Made by a program: the position numbers and the translations under genes. The notes beneath the pieces were generated by a model, which saw nothing but the letters and a program-made list of their open reading frames with translations, was not told the origin of the DNA and did no database searches. A stretch of DNA of 64,000 nt. Source: Acetobacter sicerae. GTDB lineage: Bacteria; Pseudomonadota; Alphaproteobacteria; Acetobacterales; Acetobacteraceae. Location: the NCBI RefSeq assembly GCF_011516765.1, contig NZ_JAAABN010000002.1, forward strand, positions 124,001 through 188,000, in the 5' to 3' direction. Below are positions 5,212 to 12,469 of the stretch, one piece after another; the stretch's first letter is position 1, and each line of letters opens with the position of its first letter.

Positions 5212-8001
5212 TCAGTAATGGACAGATGCGGAATCAATCAGAGGCGCTTTGGGCGGAGCGAATGTGGTCAGATCAATGCCTTCCACGGCCGCCATGTATT
5301 CCTCGTTGCTCGGTGTACGACCCAGGATCGCAGACAGCACCACGACCGGGGTTGAGGCCAGAAGCGATTCACCCTTCTTGGTCCCGGAATCTTCTACGAC
5401 ACGACCTTGGAACAGACGGGTCGACGTCGCCAGAACGGTATCGCCCTTTTCTGCTTTTTCCTGATTGCCCATGCACAGATTGCAGCCCGGACGCTCCAGA
5501 TAGAGGATGTTTTCATACTCGGTGCGCGGAGCATTTTTCGGGTGTGAGTCGTCAAATTCGAAGCCGGAATAACGCTCCAGAATTTCCCAGTCCCCTTCGG
5601 CCTTCAGTTCGTCAATAATATTGTAGGTCGGGGCAGCCACGACGAGCGGAGCATTGAACTCCACCTTCCCTTTTGCCTTCTCAATATTCTTGAGCATCTG
5701 GGCCACGATTTTCATATCGCCCTTATGCACCATGCAGGAGCCCACGAACCCGAGATCCACCTTCTTGGTGCCGCCATAGTAAGAAACCGGGCGGATTGTA
5801 TCGTGGGTATAGCGCTTGGACACATCCTTGTTGTTGACATCGGGATCAGCGATCATGGGTTCATTGATCACGTCGAGATCGACAACAACTTCGGCGAAGT
5901 ATTTCGCGTTGTCGTCCGGAGCAAGCGGGGGATTTTCGCCCGAGCGTATTCCGGCAATCCGTTTGTCAGCCTTGGCGATGAGCCCCTTCAGCGTGCCGGC
6001 GGCATTATCCATGCCTTTGTCGATCATGATCTGGATGCGCGACTTGGCGATTTCGAGCGATTCAATCAGAGCTTCAGCCTGAGAGATGCAGATGGAGGCC
6101 TTGGCCTTCATCTCGGCTGTCCAGTCGGTAAAGGTGAAGGCCTGGTCAGCAAGAAGTGTGCCAATATGCACTTCGATGATGCGGCCCTGAAACACGTTCT
6201 CGCTGCACTGCTTGAGCATCTGCGCCTGTGTCGCATGCACCACGTCACGGAAGTCCATGTGCGGCTGCATCGTGCCCTTGAACGTCACCTTGACCGACTG
6301 CGGGATCGGCATGGTCGCTTCGCCAGTGGCCAGAGCCAGCGCCACGGTGCCTGAGTCGGCGCCGAACGCCACGCCTTTGGACATGCGGGTGTGGCTGTCA
6401 CCACCGATAATGATGTCCCAGTCACTCACGGTGAGGTCGTTCAGAACCTTGTGGATCACGTCCGTCATCGGGGGATAGACCCCCTTCGGATCGCGGGCCG
6501 TGATCAGACCGAAGTCGTTCATGAATTTCATGAGCTTCGGAATGTTCGCCTGCGCCTTCTTGTCCCAGACGGATGCCGTGTGACAGCCCGACTGATACGC
6601 GCCGTCCACCAGTGGCGAAATGACGGTAGCCGCCATCGCCTCAAGCTCCTGCGCGGTCATCAGGCCGGTGGTGTCCTGCGAACCGACGATGTTCACCTGC
6701 ACGCGAACGTCCGATCCTGCATGCAGAACCTTGCCCGGGGTCACGCCGACCGCGTTACGGTTGAAGATTTTCTCGACAGCGGTCAGACCCTGATTGTCGA
6801 TCGTGATCTCTTTGTTCGGCGCGAAAACGGTTGGTGCCGTGATCCCCAGTGTCTGGGCAGCAAATGTCTGGAGCTTCTTGCCGAAAACGATCGCATAAGA
6901 GCTGCCCGCCTTCATGAATTCCAGCTTCTGAGGTGTGAAGGACGCAGCGATATCGGCCAGTTCTTTGCCGTTCGCATCGCGAAGCTTCTTGTTCTTCACA
7001 TCGATATTGAGAATAGTGCCGGTCGCGACCGGGTATTTTTCCTCAAGGATGGGGTTACCATCGCTATTCAGAACCGGCTTGCCATCTGCATCGGTCTTTC
7101 TGACCCAGTTTTTCAGGTTGATGCCGATGCCACCGGTCACGTCAACGGTCGTCGCAAAGATCGGTGAAATGCCATTGGTGCCCGCGACGATCGGGGCGTA
7201 GTTGACGAATGGAACGTAGGGGCTGGCCTGCTTGCCGGTCCAGAGCGCCACGTTGTTCACGCCTGACATACGCGACGAACCGACGCCCATCGTGCCTTTT
7301 TCGGCGATCATCATCACGCGTGCATCGGGGTGCTGCTTCTGCAGCGCGACGATTTCCTGCTGGGCTGCCGGAGAGATCATGCACTGGCCGTGCAACTCGC
7401 GGTCCGAGCGTGAGTGCGCCTGATTGCCCGGCGACAGGAGATCGGTCGAAATATCGCCTTCAGCGGCGATGAAGGTGACGACCTTGATCTCGTCTTCAAC
7501 AGGCGGAAGTTTGGTGAAGAACTCGGCCTTGGCGTAGCTCTCAAGCACGTCCTTGGCGACGGCGTTGCCTGCCTTGTAGGCATCGCGCAGCCGGAACAGG
7601 TCGGCGTCGTAGAGGAAAACCTGTGTTTTCAGCACCTCACCTGCCTGTTTGGCGATCGCGGCGTTATCACCAAGAGCGATGTCGAGCAGAACCTTGACCG
7701 AGGGGCCGCCCTTCATGTGCGACAGCAGTTCAAGCGCGTAGGCGGGCGTGATCTCCGGGACGACCGTTTCGCCCTCGACGATCTTCTTCAGGAAGGCCGC
7801 CTTGACGCCAGCGGCGCTCGTGGTGCCCGGCAATGTGTTGTAAATGAAGAACTTGAGGGCGTCGGCCCGCTCCGCGTTACCCGCATCCTCAATCAATGCG
7901 ATGATGTCACGAACGAGGCCGCCGTCGTCGATCGGCTTGGGTGAAAGCCCCTGACTTTTTCGTTCCTTGATTTCGGTCAGGTAATCTGAGTAGGCGTTCA
8001 T
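5212..8001 (-). CDS. acnB: Aconitate hydratase B / 2-methylisocitrate dehydratase
   Basis: This 929-residue protein is an AcnB-type aconitase: an N-terminal HEAT-like domain, the swivel domain, then the three catalytic domains. It interconverts citrate and isocitrate in the TCA cycle and can serve in the methylcitrate cycle. The [4Fe-4S] ligands are visible as SCMVHKGD near residue 755 and GCNLCMGN near residue 840, and the substrate loop GDSHTRMSKG lies near residue 535. It is longer than the roughly 865 residues of the E. coli enzyme and belongs to the longer AcnB subgroup. The ATG at 8001 has a GGGA element six bases upstream. It stands alone, with its promoter in the gap to its right. Confidence 0.97.
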   Translation of the reverse strand: MNAYSDYLTEIKERKSQGLSPKPIDDGGLVRDIIALIEDAGNAERADALKFFIYNTLPGTTSAAGVKAAFLKKIVEGETVVPEITPAYALELLSHMKGGPSVKVLLDIALGDNAAIAKQAGEVLKTQVFLYDADLFRLRDAYKAGNAVAKDVLESYAKAEFFTKLPPVEDEIKVVTFIAAEGDISTDLLSPGNQAHSRSDRELHGQCMISPAAQQEIVALQKQHPDARVMMIAEKGTMGVGSSRMSGVNNVALWTGKQASPYVPFVNYAPIVAGTNGISPIFATTVDVTGGIGINLKNWVRKTDADGKPVLNSDGNPILEEKYPVATGTILNIDVKNKKLRDANGKELADIAASFTPQKLEFMKAGSSYAIVFGKKLQTFAAQTLGITAPTVFAPNKEITIDNQGLTAVEKIFNRNAVGVTPGKVLHAGSDVRVQVNIVGSQDTTGLMTAQELEAMAATVISPLVDGAYQSGCHTASVWDKKAQANIPKLMKFMNDFGLITARDPKGVYPPMTDVIHKVLNDLTVSDWDIIIGGDSHTRMSKGVAFGADSGTVALALATGEATMPIPQSVKVTFKGTMQPHMDFRDVVHATQAQMLKQCSENVFQGRIIEVHIGTLLADQAFTFTDWTAEMKAKASICISQAEALIESLEIAKSRIQIMIDKGMDNAAGTLKGLIAKADKRIAGIRSGENPPLAPDDNAKYFAEVVVDLDVINEPMIADPDVNNKDVSKRYTHDTIRPVSYYGGTKKVDLGFVGSCMVHKGDMKIVAQMLKNIEKAKGKVEFNAPLVVAAPTYNIIDELKAEGDWEILERYSGFEFDDSHPKNAPRTEYENILYLERPGCNLCMGNQEKAEKGDTVLATSTRLFQGRVVEDSGTKKGESLLASTPVVVLSAILGRTPSNEEYMAAVEGIDLTTFAPPKAPLIDSASVHY

Positions 8002-9009
8002 CGCAATCCCAACGTCATTGAGGTGTGTGGACCTGAAACACGGCCCTTTAAACCAGATATGGCTCAGTCGGCTCAGGGTTCTGTGAGACCCCGGTTACGC
8101 CAACGACTGCCGACTGACAAGGCACGGCAATTTGGCAGGACAGCCCATGAATTCCGCGGTTGTCGCCTGAATTCGGCACTCTGTCTTTTTCTTCAATCGG
8201 AGCCTGAACACCGTCGATTTCACCCCTGCCGTGCTGGTTTGATCTGACCGATGGCGTTGCATTTGTCATTTCAATTTTCCGGTACTGGGGAACGTGTCAG
8301 CTTCTCTGTTCCGTCATTCATCATCAGGGTGCTGTTGGTCATGGACCATTCAGTCATTTCCATGACGCATGGCAGGACATGTATCGAACAGGAAGATGGT
8401 GGCATTCATCATCGCTGTGAGCTTCTGCGGATCAAGGACGGGGAGAAACGGACCGCACGAAGACACAGCTAATGCCTCGCCCTACACGCAGGGACTGATG
8501 ATCGCATGGAGTGGTTGTCGGAACCTTACGGATGAGGTTCCTCATTACGGATTTCAAACAGGTTGATGAATGACTGAGTTAAGTAAGCTCTGGTGAGTTA
8601 ACGAAACTGGGGCAGATTATGACCTGCCTTGTTTTTATTGTGCGGTATCTGTTGATCTTTGGTCATTTATTTGAATGATCGACTTGGGGGGGGGAAGCTC
8701 TGCTACTAGTTTGGAAACTGCAGAAGCAGACAGCAGGTGAGATGGGAAGACATGTCTCATGTTATGCATTAATATGCTCAACTTCGAGGAACTGTTGCAT
8801 ATGCAAGCTTAAGAGGCGTCTCTCCAAATCGGCAGCAGCTTTTTGCCTCATACAAGGCTATGGCTGCCTTGCTTGTACAAGCCGTCCCAGTCCGAACTGC
8901 CCAGCTCGATGAATTAACGAAAAACCTCAAGGTCTCAGGGACTGATTTACCGAACGACGGTCTCAGGCCAAGAAATGCTTGCTCAGATCGGCGTTTGCTA
9001 ACCAGCGAG
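8002..9009. other. About 1 kb without a convincing gene (acnB upstream region and decayed DNA)
   Basis: The first 250 bp must hold the acnB promoter, though I cannot pick out clear boxes. The rest contains only short open frames on both strands (for example 8251-8472 plus and 8778-9047 minus) without a good ribosome binding site or a family I recognise. A run of nine G residues lies at 8686-8694. Codon usage and base composition shift away from the dense flanking genes, suggesting a decayed insertion. Confidence 0.5.
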
Positions 9010-9678
9010 TCAGATCCTTTTATCGAGCCGCCCTTCGATAAAAGCATTTACACATTCATAATGCCAGTTAGTTCGCGTACGAGTGGGAAACTCAATTAAA
9101 TTGCAGCAACGTGCATCGGGCTCGTTTCGAGAATTATAATAGATTGTTTTGGTGCCTCTGAGACCTTTCGTAAGTTTGCAAAACAAGGGCAGGTAATCTT
9201 TGCCCCCAAAAAAAGTGATAGGTTCTTCGGTGTCCGACGGTATGCTCCGAAAATCATCGAAAGGATCGTTTTTACTCCGATATTTAAACGGAGCCGATTT
9301 TTTCACAGATTTGCTGAACGTTATGTCATATTGTGGTGTCAGAAAATCTGCTCGGATCAGTCCCCATCCAGCAGACAAGATGTAGAGTTTCTCGATACCG
9401 ACATAATTTGCGAGGGATACATAGACGGGATTTTCATAGAGTTGATACGCGGGCAATAAGCCTAGAGGGTTGTTCCCCGGCTTTGCATTATACTGAGTGA
9501 GAATGTCACGCCAACTTAGTCCGCTGCTGGAAAAATCATCGGGGCGAGAAAAGGCAATGCCTTCTTCAGACGATGCTTTAGCTGGATCCGCAACGATCAT
9601 AACCTTCGTGCCGTCATCCCTTTTGAGATAGCCAGCATCCTTTCGTTTTCGTGCTGCGCACTGGATGACAGCAATCAT
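9010..9678 (-). CDS. Uncharacterised YaaA/DUF6884-like protein, second gene of a two-gene cassette
   Basis: The 222-residue protein starts MIAVIQCAARK, with a cysteine at position 7 where DUF6884/YaaA-like proteins have their conserved cysteine-lysine entry motif. It continues with LLPAYQLYENP (74-84), which resembles the PA..LY motif of that group. The strongly patterned stretch YILSAGWGLIRADFL (99-113) corresponds to the family's sAkyGl core. A final conserved-looking block is FFGGKDYLPLF (156-166). No catalytic function is established for it. The start codon overlaps the stop of the upstream GIY-YIG-like gene by one base (TAATG), so the two are coupled. I assign only the fold resemblance, and that from memory of sequence patterns. 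Confidence 0.7.
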   Translation of the reverse strand: MIAVIQCAARKRKDAGYLKRDDGTKVMIVADPAKASSEEGIAFSRPDDFSSSGLSWRDILTQYNAKPGNNPLGLLPAYQLYENPVYVSLANYVGIEKLYILSAGWGLIRADFLTPQYDITFSKSVKKSAPFKYRSKNDPFDDFRSIPSDTEEPITFFGGKDYLPLFCKLTKGLRGTKTIYYNSRNEPDARCCNLIEFPTRTRTNWHYECVNAFIEGRLDKRI

Positions 9679-10376
9679 TATTTGACCTTCATGGCGTCTA
9701 CGAGTTCCGATAAACGATCAAGGAAAGCCGGATCGTAGGACTCGTCGACATGATTGTTATTCCAAAGCCCAGATGAACGGACGCGCTCGCGATTGCATCC
9801 ATGTCCTAGCCATTGAGGCGATGGGGGATCGATGGCTTCTTTACCGTAGTTGCTCAGGAGGGCAATTGTATTGCGTTCAACGTAACCGCGTAAATATCTA
9901 CTGTCAGGGCTACCGTCTATGTCGAGCCAGAGAAGCGGCATAGCGCCGATAATATTACTGACCTCACCTTCGAGATCTGTCTCCTGAGCGCGGATATAGG
10001 CAGGAGCATTGGAGCCCAGCCCCCATGTCGCAGATTGAACTCCGCGACGCTCGAGGAACGCAGTGCCGACAAGCAACCGAAATATGGATCCACGGTGATT
10101 TCCACCAGCCACACTAGCTCTGCCACGATGTTGCGAAAGCCGTCCCCATAATTTTGTGCGGGATGTGTCCGTAAGCGCATGTGTACCCACTCTTACGATC
10201 CGGGCTCCACCGTCACGACGATATTCCCCCTGCTCCTGAAAGAAATAAACCCCTCGCTGCGGCCATGACATCTTTCCATTGCATAGCGCCAAGGTTCTTG
10301 TGCCACCCAATTTGGCTTCAAGACGTCCAAGGATCGAGTAGAAAACTTGTAGGTGCGCGAGACGGACAGAGGGCAT
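9678..10376 (-). CDS. Uncharacterised GIY-YIG-like nuclease-fold protein, first gene of a two-gene cassette
   Basis: The 232-residue protein carries the elements of a GIY-YIG nuclease in order: GVYFF at 42-46 (GIY strand), RVGT at 62-65 (YIG strand), WGRLSQHRG at 77-85 with an arginine at 79 and histidine at 83, and a helix VERNTIALLSN with a glutamate at 167 and an asparagine at 176. These match the catalytic Tyr/Arg/Glu/Asn layout of UvrC-type domains. It is followed by the YaaA-like gene in a TAATG junction. The pair sits in the one accessory-looking stretch of the window. A nuclease role, perhaps in defence or nucleic-acid processing, is inference. Confidence 0.7.
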   Translation of the reverse strand: MPSVRLAHLQVFYSILGRLEAKLGGTRTLALCNGKMSWPQRGVYFFQEQGEYRRDGGARIVRVGTHALTDTSRTKLWGRLSQHRGRASVAGGNHRGSIFRLLVGTAFLERRGVQSATWGLGSNAPAYIRAQETDLEGEVSNIIGAMPLLWLDIDGSPDSRYLRGYVERNTIALLSNYGKEAIDPPSPQWLGHGCNRERVRSSGLWNNNHVDESYDPAFLDRLSELVDAMKVK

Positions 10377-10438
10377 ATCAAATATAAAGCCCGTCGGAGC
10401 GATTCGGCTCTACTCCTTTTATCAAGAGGGGCGTAAAA

Positions 10439-10579
10439 ATGGCTAAAGATCAGTGGCTATGCCTCGAGGGCGAATCAAGCAAAAAAGTAATCGTATTAAA
10501 ATTAACATTGCGAAAAGCTCAGAGTGTTCAAGCTTCTGTTAGCTCGTTTTTACAATATTCTCGCTCGTTCCGAGTTTAG
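10439..10579 (+). CDS. Small ORF divergent from the GIY-YIG-like gene (46 residues, hypothetical)
   Basis: An ATG at 10439 is preceded by AGAGGGG with a seven-base spacer, a good Shine-Dalgarno arrangement. The 46-residue product (starting MAKDQWLCLEGESSKK) is basic, has no membrane segment and matches no family I know. Codon usage is AT-rich compared with the flanking operons. It reads away from the two-gene cassette, leaving a 62-bp shared promoter region, so it could be a small regulator or the 5' stump of a decayed gene. Confidence 0.4.
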   Translation: MAKDQWLCLEGESSKKVIVLKLTLRKAQSVQASVSSFLQYSRSFRV

Positions 10580-10843
10580 AACAAAACCATAGTCGATCTG
10601 AGATGAAAAGATTGTCTGCGTCGATAAACGCCGCGTGATTATGTTCGGCTAATCTCTATCTCAAACTTATCTTACCTGAGCTAAGGAGGTCATTCAAAAA
10701 CAGAAAATTTTAATATCAATCTACATTAAAGCAATTCAGAGGAGATGGCTATGTCCGCTTGCAGGAGACGTGCAAACATGCATGTCACAGTTGAGGGCGA
10801 AAGCCGACATACAATCCAAAAACTGTTTCAGACACAAAACTCT
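10580..10843. other. AT-rich spacer, no convincing gene
   Basis: This stretch is clearly AT-richer than its neighbours. It holds a perfect AAGGAGGT at 10683-10690 with no start codon in range. An AGAGGAG at 10738-10744 lies before two ATGs whose frame runs antisense into the MFS gene. I see no structural RNA or repeat. Confidence 0.45.
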
Positions 10844-12241
10844 CTACTTCGTTCCATGCCCGCTCACATTCGCCCCCGCATCCGGCCGCAGTCGCGCGGC
10901 CACCGGCACAGCGATGCAGGTCAGCGCCCCCACGACCAGAAACCCCACCCTGAAATCCGCCGCCACCGCCTGCGGATGGTCCTGAACGGCGCGGGACACC
11001 GTTACGGCCAGCGCGGCCACGCAAATGCCTGCTGAGAGCATCATCTGCTGGAAAGTGGAGTAGAAACTGGTTGCGTTACTCATCCGCTCTTCCGGCAGGT
11101 CGGCATAGGCGATGGAGTTGTAGGCCGAAAACTGGATCGCCTGCACAGCGCCCGACGCCAGTAACACCAGTGTCAGCGTCCAGAGCGGCCAGCCTGGCTG
11201 GAAGCTGGCGATTGCTCCGAAAGCGAGCGCTCCGCCCCACCCCATGGTCATCATCACGGTTCGAAAACCGAAGCGACGGAACAGGCGCGGCACATACAGA
11301 CGTGAGCAGAGCGCCCCGATGGGGGCTGCAAAGACGACCATACCGCTTTGCGCCGGGCTCAGTCCGAAGCCGATCTGCAACATGGCGGGCATCAGGAACG
11401 GAAAAGACCCGGCAGCGAGGCGTGACGCCGCGCCACTCAGGACGGACAGACGGAAAGTGGGAATTTCCATCAACCGGAAATCAAGAACCGGGTTGGGGCA
11501 GCGTTTCATATGACGGAAATAGCCGAGAAACAGGCAGGCTCCGGCAATCAGCAGGACGGCGGAAAGCCAGTAGGGTCTTGCATTGTGGCTGATCATCTCC
11601 GCGCTGAAAGACAGCAGCGCCAGACCGCCGCCAGCCAGTCCCATGCCCGGCCAGTCGAATGGACGGCTCTGCTTTTCCTGCAACTGGGGGACGTGTTTCC
11701 ACGTCAGATAAAGTCCGAGCAGGCCAACGGGGACGTTGATGTAAAAATTCCAGCGCCATGACAGCAGGGTTGTGATGAAGCCGCCCAGCACAGGACCGAG
11801 CATCGGGCCGAGCGTGGCGGGCATCATCATCCATGTCATGGTTTTCAGCAGCTCAGATTTGGCGACGCTTCGCAAAAGCACCAGCCTGCCGACCGGCACC
11901 ATCAATGCGCCCCCTACTCCCTGCAACATGCGTCCGAAGGCCAGCACGGGAAGACTACCCGCCTGCCCGCAGAGGATGGAACAGACAATAAACAGGGTGA
12001 TTGCCGTCATCAGCGTCGTGCGGCTGCCGAAGCGGTCGGCCACCGCGCCGGATGCGGGAATGAAAATAGCCAGCCCGACGATGTAGGAGGTCAACGCTAC
12101 GGAAGCCGCCACCGGATCGACATGCAGGGAGGAAGCGATGGCCGGAAGAGCTGTCGCCAGAATGGTGCCGTCGAGCTGCTCCATAAACAGCAGACTGGAA
12201 ATGGTCAGGGCGATGATCTGCGATCGGCGTAAGGCTGGCAT
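10844..12241 (-). CDS. MFS multidrug exporter, DHA2 (14-TMS) family
   Basis: From the ATG at 12241 the protein has 465 residues with about 14 hydrophobic segments, the layout of EmrB/QacA proton antiporters. Helix 1 carries MEQLDGTILATALP with the aspartate (24) typical of DHA2 exporters. The loop 2-3 motif is ADRFGSRTT, and the motif C region GRMLQGVGGALMVP follows. The substrate cannot be told from sequence. A TTG 12 codons upstream (12277) would extend the frame, and neither start has a strong ribosome binding site. No EmrA-like partner is adjacent, so it probably works alone in the inner membrane. Confidence 0.9.
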   Translation of the reverse strand: MPALRRSQIIALTISSLLFMEQLDGTILATALPAIASSLHVDPVAASVALTSYIVGLAIFIPASGAVADRFGSRTTLMTAITLFIVCSILCGQAGSLPVLAFGRMLQGVGGALMVPVGRLVLLRSVAKSELLKTMTWMMMPATLGPMLGPVLGGFITTLLSWRWNFYINVPVGLLGLYLTWKHVPQLQEKQSRPFDWPGMGLAGGGLALLSFSAEMISHNARPYWLSAVLLIAGACLFLGYFRHMKRCPNPVLDFRLMEIPTFRLSVLSGAASRLAAGSFPFLMPAMLQIGFGLSPAQSGMVVFAAPIGALCSRLYVPRLFRRFGFRTVMMTMGWGGALAFGAIASFQPGWPLWTLTLVLLASGAVQAIQFSAYNSIAYADLPEERMSNATSFYSTFQQMMLSAGICVAALAVTVSRAVQDHPQAVAADFRVGFLVVGALTCIAVPVAARLRPDAGANVSGHGTK

Positions 12242-12469
12242 GTGGGCCACAAAACAGATTTTCCGCTCGGGGCACAATATGTCGCGGGCGGGCTCACGTA
12301 TCCTTGCGAACGCATGGCTTACGGGAGAAACTCATTCACATTGCGCCAAAACCGTTGGCCACAAAAAGCGTTGCATCATCAGTGAGATCGGTTCCAACTG
12401 TACCGACACGAACCGTATTCCGGTTCCGCGTCCCACTGACGCCTCAGGATGTTCGAAAGGAAGACAGAC

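Follow-up and report, generated by a model that had tools for sequence, protein, structure and literature searches.

A predicted GIY-YIG-like nuclease paired with apparently exchangeable YaaA/DUF6884-superfamily partners in Acetobacter sicerae and other genomes

The stretch of DNA analysed here, termed the window, comprises 64,000 nucleotides of Acetobacter sicerae (contig NZ_JAAABN010000002.1, positions 124,001 to 188,000) and carries a pair of intact, overlapping genes that is real and conserved. On the minus strand, gene A (9678..10376) is followed by gene B (9010..9678). Gene A encodes a full-length protein of 232 amino acids (aa), a predicted GIY-YIG-like nuclease corresponding to PDC-M57B of PADLOC, and gene B encodes a full-length protein of 222 aa, a partner from the YaaA/DUF6884 superfamily. 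The two genes overlap by one base, which the stop of A and the start of B share at a TAATG junction (9676..9680, minus strand), and both open reading frames (ORFs) lie where an original prediction, made from the letters alone, had placed a two-gene cassette. PADLOC already includes the pair among its phage-defence candidates, and no described mechanism was found in a literature search. What is new is the near-constant pairing of A with a YaaA/DUF6884 protein, the apparent exchange of partner types, and the existence of two collinear genomes of the same genus that do not have the pair. On a tentative reading, the pair may be a two-component modification-dependent restriction module in which B is an exchangeable base-flipping sensor and A a constant nuclease.

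Among 7997 candidates scored for A, 7548 relatives were found at E <= 0.001, and 2206 relatives of B were found among 2300 candidates; both genes are therefore beyond chance. From 263 loci that carry A in genomes of named species, the best 80 were examined with three partner profiles, namely canonical B, T2 (short DUF6884 proteins, mostly upstream of A) and T3 (helix-turn-helix (HTH)-YaaA or YaaA proteins). A partner is present within 1.1 kb of A in 75 of these 80 loci. It is canonical B in 61 (a few of these genes being broken or cut short), T2 in 7 and T3 in 4, and in the other 3 A is fused to B (L052) or to T2 (L069, L076). All 80 partner matches in the loci, which amount to 1.336 Mb, fall at most 1.1 kb from A and none falls farther away, and the same profiles have 0 matches in 0.524 Mb of control DNA, taken from 27 further genome regions that mostly belong to the same genus or class. 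Of the 61 canonical pairs, 38 have a four-base overlap and 13 another overlap; in 9 the genes are separated by no more than 20 bases, and in 1 by more. The seeds of the T2 and T3 profiles were themselves partners chosen beside A (8 and 4 loci, respectively), so that adjacency is built in for the seed loci. Apart from these seeds, the profiles detect 15 partners at most 1.1 kb from A, spread over 14 loci (L003, L075, L083 twice, eight viral T2 loci, L180, L196 and L197). Broken genes are found in at least four loci, affecting B in L027, L029 and L050 and A in L054, and in L009 just the start of a B is left, in a longer frame (E 0.021). As the original prediction had anticipated, homologues of the two genes co-occur, and neither protein was assigned to an unrelated family.

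The partner types share a signature, CxxxK followed by LS[AG]xxG, which is present in 61 of 64 canonical B proteins (the other three being broken genes), 20 of 22 T2 proteins and all six T3 proteins. The T2-type partners scanned score above the Pfam DUF6884 cut-off of 30 bits (166.5 in L074, 159.6 in L082 and 67.0 in L088), and the YaaA-like partners of L003, L083 and L180 exceed the cut-off of YaaA (PF03883). The HTH-YaaA partner of L043, the sole one of four to be scanned individually, reaches 19.9 bits against a cut-off of 29.6. In profile comparisons, B and T2 are related with a probability of 92.8 and B and T3 with a probability of 84.3, while comparisons with A or Eco29kI give at most 0.4. 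Some loci have unusual arrangements. A canonical B copy lies on either side of A in L026 (9152-11676), apparently the same place as L198, and in L083 (9066-11884) A is preceded by a DUF6884 gene and followed by a YaaA-like gene, the product of which has a C-terminal stretch weakly like RelE/ParE toxins. In L082, the DUF6884 protein encoded upstream of A additionally contains DUF7662 and has a weak match of the Swt1-like HEPN type; a close homologue of it is seen by eye in L080. In addition, one B homologue (P0236) is fused to PF24698 (DUF7662).

Gene A contains the elements GVY (42-44), RVGT (62-65), R79, E167 and N176, and thus has the tyrosine of GIY, the catalytic arginine and the metal-binding glutamate in order (Y44, R79, E167). 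Y44, R62, R79, H83 and E167 are invariant in all 67 aligned homologues, many of which were gathered with patterns containing the ERN motif of E167. Y44, R79 and E167 are also kept in haloarchaeal relatives, which are 39-42% identical. It had been claimed that every GIY-YIG catalytic element is present, and this holds for the elements listed above; it fails at the YIG tyrosine, the position of which is occupied by R62, and N176 is retained in 57 of the 67 homologues only. A is termed GIY-YIG-like because of this arginine. The AlphaFold2 model of A (predicted local distance difference test 91.8, predicted template modelling score 0.90) and its VIA-align entries, all of which are GIY-YIG, favour the GIY-YIG-like nuclease fold that had been proposed and that A is predicted to have. 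No family was obtained for A from Pfam, NCBIfam or PHROGs; Pfam PF26468 is the precomputed assignment for its relatives. A PDB sequence search with the A profile gave no convincing relative (best E 0.15, an unrelated-looking chain), and no homology between A and B was detected by hhalign (probability 0.3).

Gene B begins with the cysteine entry IQCAARK (C7, K11) and has the core LSAGWG (101-106), both as first described. The corresponding motifs, CxxxK and LSAxxG, are those given for DUF6884 in PMC11701544, and they are invariant in 73 of 73 aligned B sequences. The kinship of B to YaaA/DUF6884, also part of the original prediction, is supported by profile matches and by the top structural row of the B model, which is YaaA (5caj); B is predicted to share the YaaA/DUF6884 fold. 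Against Pfam DUF6884 (PF21818), B scores 21.6 bits, below the cut-off of 30, and PF21818.4 is the precomputed assignment on many of the 120 B relatives listed. B also has a weak match to the DpdC profile. Foldseek on the B model found no match at E <= 0.001, and a PDB sequence search with the B profile found no convincing relative (best E 0.065, an unrelated-looking chain). The same search with two variant partners gave for one a weak YaaA row (E 0.37) behind a RelE chain (0.025) and for the other none.

The exchange of partners was followed on a tree of 101 A proteins, each labelled by its partner within 2.5 kb (B, T2, T3 or none). These labels require 15 changes, where the least possible is 3. 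On well-supported branches, the minimum is 4 changes for B, 5 for T2 and 2 for T3, including changes to no partner; as the bootstrap did not converge, these counts are rough. One group of six rows with good support (98/96) combines L073, which has a T3 partner, with four rows with B and one without a partner. Over 58 pairs, the mean distance is smaller for A (0.416) than for B (0.495), so that A is the more conserved of the two, and their distances correlate (r 0.654, a value reached in 0 of 999 permutations). The partner of A, which belongs to at least three types and lies on either side of A or is fused to it, has apparently been exchanged in evolution. The nuclease would thus be the constant part of the system and the partner the variable part, and the variable partner probably gives specificity, since the nuclease stays while the partner changes.

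The pair sits in an accessory slot (8296..10855), between acnB (5212-8001) and a major facilitator superfamily (MFS) gene (10844-12277), both names being assigned by eye. This agrees with the accessory location noted from the start: a search of the 60 other genomes, including 36 from the same genus, gave no match to A. The surroundings of acnB were compared in seven same-genus genomes. Two of these (G032, G013) align on both sides of the pair at 87.5-89.2% identity without having it, and hold other DNA, about 1.35 and 1.62 kb, between the breaks, which blastn against L161 and L162 places at window positions 8295/8298 and 10854/10856. The other five align over acnB only and are uninformative on the site. 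Because the two collinear genomes hold other DNA, the slot is variable where it can be compared. In the class sample, A is found in 7 of 385 genomes and canonical B matches in 6. Four of these B matches adjoin A, another is a fragment lying at the end of its contig, and the sixth is weak and incomplete; the other three A genes have a T2 partner (L196, L197) or no intact partner (L195). The class sample overlaps the 80 loci, since L195 is apparently L009, and L198 and L200 seem to repeat L026 and L004. It had further been supposed that decayed DNA lies beside the pair. No gene remnant was recognised in the 714 bases beyond B, and these bases have no match at E <= 0.001 in 40 other same-genus genomes, except for two short stretches of 70-77% in one.

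The cargo of the slot differs in three same-genus genomes (window 8296-10855; L161 12485-13835; L162 11921-13544), and in L162 it includes a 188-aa OmpA-like ORF, recognised by eye, and then a 244-aa ORF. The N-terminal third of acnB matches in just 14 of 41 same-genus genomes, so this flank is itself unevenly distributed. The GC fraction is 0.46-0.53 in the stretch with the pair compared to 0.53-0.61 over the flanking acnB and MFS genes. An inverted repeat at the 3' end of B (9014..9047, minus strand; arms 9014-9026 and 9035-9047) is possibly a transcription terminator. No tandem repeats were found at the locus, and among a few short direct repeats none convincingly brackets the pair as a target-site duplication.

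Several known systems resemble the pair in part. For the phage-defence candidate PDC-M57, A matches the PADLOC-DB 2.0.0 model of PDC-M57B (PDLC04714) over residues 5-230 of 232 (E 7.9e-80), and the adjoining B has a match to the PDC-M57A model (E 6.8e-5, 21.2 bits) that covers just 52 residues. The best of 73 canonical B proteins reaches 3.8e-8 with the latter model, whereas a short Deinococcus T2 reaches 2.5e-33; the window has the longer partner type. The pair had been called uncharacterised, which is right insofar as the literature search, with most subscription papers outside its scope, found no paper on it and no published function of PDC-M57, and which overlooks that PADLOC-DB already contains A as PDC-M57B. 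The R.Eco29kI family (PF09517) is like A in size, in the GIY-YIG fold predicted for A and in the RLxxH motif of the helix that follows the second strand, but its profile comparison with A is not significant (probability 1.4). Eco29kI is a sequence-specific type II enzyme. To DpdC, Escherichia coli YaaA and YfjM (DUF328, DUF6884), B is linked by the DUF6884 motifs CxxxK and LSAxxG, by its weak DpdC profile match and by YaaA as its top structural row; it differs in being paired with a nuclease. In CMoRE (PD-T4-3), a GIY-YIG type IV enzyme, the nuclease is joined to a modified-DNA sensor and can protect against T-even phages, according to PMC12923530; the principle of a nuclease plus a sensor therefore has precedent. 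CMoRE itself is a single protein, which combines a GIYxY-YIG motif with a sensor domain that has no known homologues, whereas in the pair a second protein, of the YaaA/DUF6884 kind, is the sensor candidate, and arginine replaces the YIG tyrosine. Brig3-BapA, like the pair, is a two-gene operon, and it acts on odd bases of phage DNA; in PMC13160076, Brig3 is a glycosylase, BapA is a glucosyl hydrolase with an ASCH-like structure, and neither is termed GIY-YIG or YaaA-like (0 occurrences).

The pair is also found in viral and plasmid contexts. A is present on 13 viral contigs, three of them near-identical, of which 10 have a partner and one of these a canonical B; among the three without a partner, L178 begins inside A and is near-identical to L170. 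Neither A nor B matches any of 50,697 phage records. An upstream-type DUF6884 gene accompanies A on L169-L173, L175 and L179, and on L172 the pair looks like late-operon cargo. On L177 (4701-8701), a DUF6884-GIY-YIG fusion overlaps QueC and is followed by a SIR2-domain gene and a nucleoside 2-deoxyribosyltransferase gene, and on L180 a YaaA-GIY-YIG fusion lies beside HsdM and HsdS. QueC makes preQ0, the base whose DNA form DpdC acts on. No plasmid DNA similar to window positions 8250-10900 was found. A Deinococcus plasmid copy of A has a DUF6884 gene 157 bases upstream. In haloarchaeal plasmids, A has an ArdC-like gene (L087) or a DUF955 gene (L085) upstream and an opposite-strand HNH gene downstream, with DUF6610 beyond it in L087; no lead was obtained from the neighbours DUF6610 and HNH. 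The nearest neighbours of A (139 of 140 chosen), which include its partners, such as PDC-M57A in five members, match 102 PADLOC families, the second-nearest 126 match 263, and the controls (139 of 140) match 39. Because a single protein can match many families (44 in one case), these figures do not count genes, and no enrichment in defence genes is claimed.

In the restriction module that we tentatively propose, the invariant CxxxK and LSAGWG motifs of B would line a pocket into which B would flip a non-standard base of invading DNA, and A, with its predicted GIY-YIG-like fold, would then cut that DNA. B would recruit or license A, and the target would be phage DNA. DNA cutting by A and base flipping by B are suggested by the predicted folds, and a role in defence by the genomic context and the PADLOC listing. 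A more doubtful extension is a general architecture of restriction in which interchangeable YaaA/DUF6884 base-flippers, each reading a different non-standard base (for example a 7-deazaguanine), would guide a single constant GIY-YIG-like nuclease, and in which replacing one partner by another would turn the nuclease against newly modified phage DNA.

A number of observations weigh against the proposed module. With respect to A, the YIG tyrosine is absent from all 67 homologues, the VIA-align entries have Z < 6, Foldseek alone found no match to the model at E <= 0.001, and hhalign comparisons with small Eco29kI, UvrC and YhbQ sets are not significant (probability <= 2.8). With respect to the partner, five of the 80 loci have no recognised one (L009, L034, L047, L071, L072), and in four haloarchaeal plasmid loci the DUF6884 gene lies at 1.9-2.1 kb (three) or at 6.1 kb on the other strand (one). 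The kinship of B to T3 is weaker than to T2, the T2-T3 comparison reaches a probability of just 11.2, and T3 labels are not clearly clustered on the A tree (as few changes in 40 of 500 shuffles). With respect to context, nearby defence matches were counted by family and not per gene, and QueC adjoins A in 1 of 105 loci; as a search with the L177 QueC found no other, it is a hint only. Moreover, some phage-borne copies lie between head genes, which also fits an intergenic nuclease.

Such a position would be expected if the pair were a mobile intergenic nuclease module of temperate phages, a homing or exclusion endonuclease with a DNA-binding helper, the bacterial copies being domesticated or remnants. 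A GIY-YIG gene lying between two structural genes of a phage is a classic example of a free-standing homing enzyme. On L172 the pair has a capsid gene (Phage_capsid_4) on one side and a cement gene (Phage_cement_2) on the other, on the bacterial contig L079 it comes after a terminase small subunit gene, and on L176 A follows terminase gpA. However, the few viral contigs and the lack of matches in the phage records make this origin unlikely, as does canonical B, the commonest type in cellular loci, being found on a single viral contig; homing enzymes are not known to need a conserved superfamily partner. Less improbable, though still rather doubtful, is that B excises or alters a base, as a glycosylase-like or DpdC-like enzyme, and that A cuts the altered or abasic site, so that defence would combine a base-altering enzyme with a nuclease. 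The invariant cysteine and lysine (C7, K11; 73 of 73) go beyond the need of a plain reader, DpdC of the same superfamily hydrolyses dPreQ0 to dADG, and glycosylase-based defence exists in Brig1 and Brig3-BapA. Against this, no glycosylase is among the structural rows listed for B, the best being YaaA, and the papers on Brig1 and Brig3 place these enzymes with uracil and alkyladenine glycosylases, the word "YaaA" being absent from their main text.

A role in the repair of unusual lesions, unrelated to phages, could account for YfjM among DNA-lesion interactors (PMC11701544) and for the raised mutation rate of E. coli upon loss of yaaA (PMC4834066). The distribution of the pair is very patchy for such a role (7 of 385 genomes of the class, 1 of 37 of the genus), it occupies a variable slot, and PADLOC holds it as a defence candidate; a plain DNA-repair role is rejected on these grounds as quite improbable. 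Two small overlapping genes in an accessory slot might also be a toxin-antitoxin system, with A as toxic nuclease and B as neutraliser. Yet B and its replacements keep one enzyme-like signature, and some pairs are fused (L052, L069, L076, L177 and L180), which is unusual for an antitoxin, so this was rejected as the least probable of all.

The modification-dependent module thus remains our preferred, tentative reading. The pairing with exchangeable partners offers a concrete hypothesis on the poorly understood YaaA/DUF6884 superfamily, namely that it reads odd DNA bases. If this is true, the superfamily would gain a role as exchangeable modified-base sensors, and the pair would represent a modular route to type IV-like restriction and a source of modification-specific enzymes.
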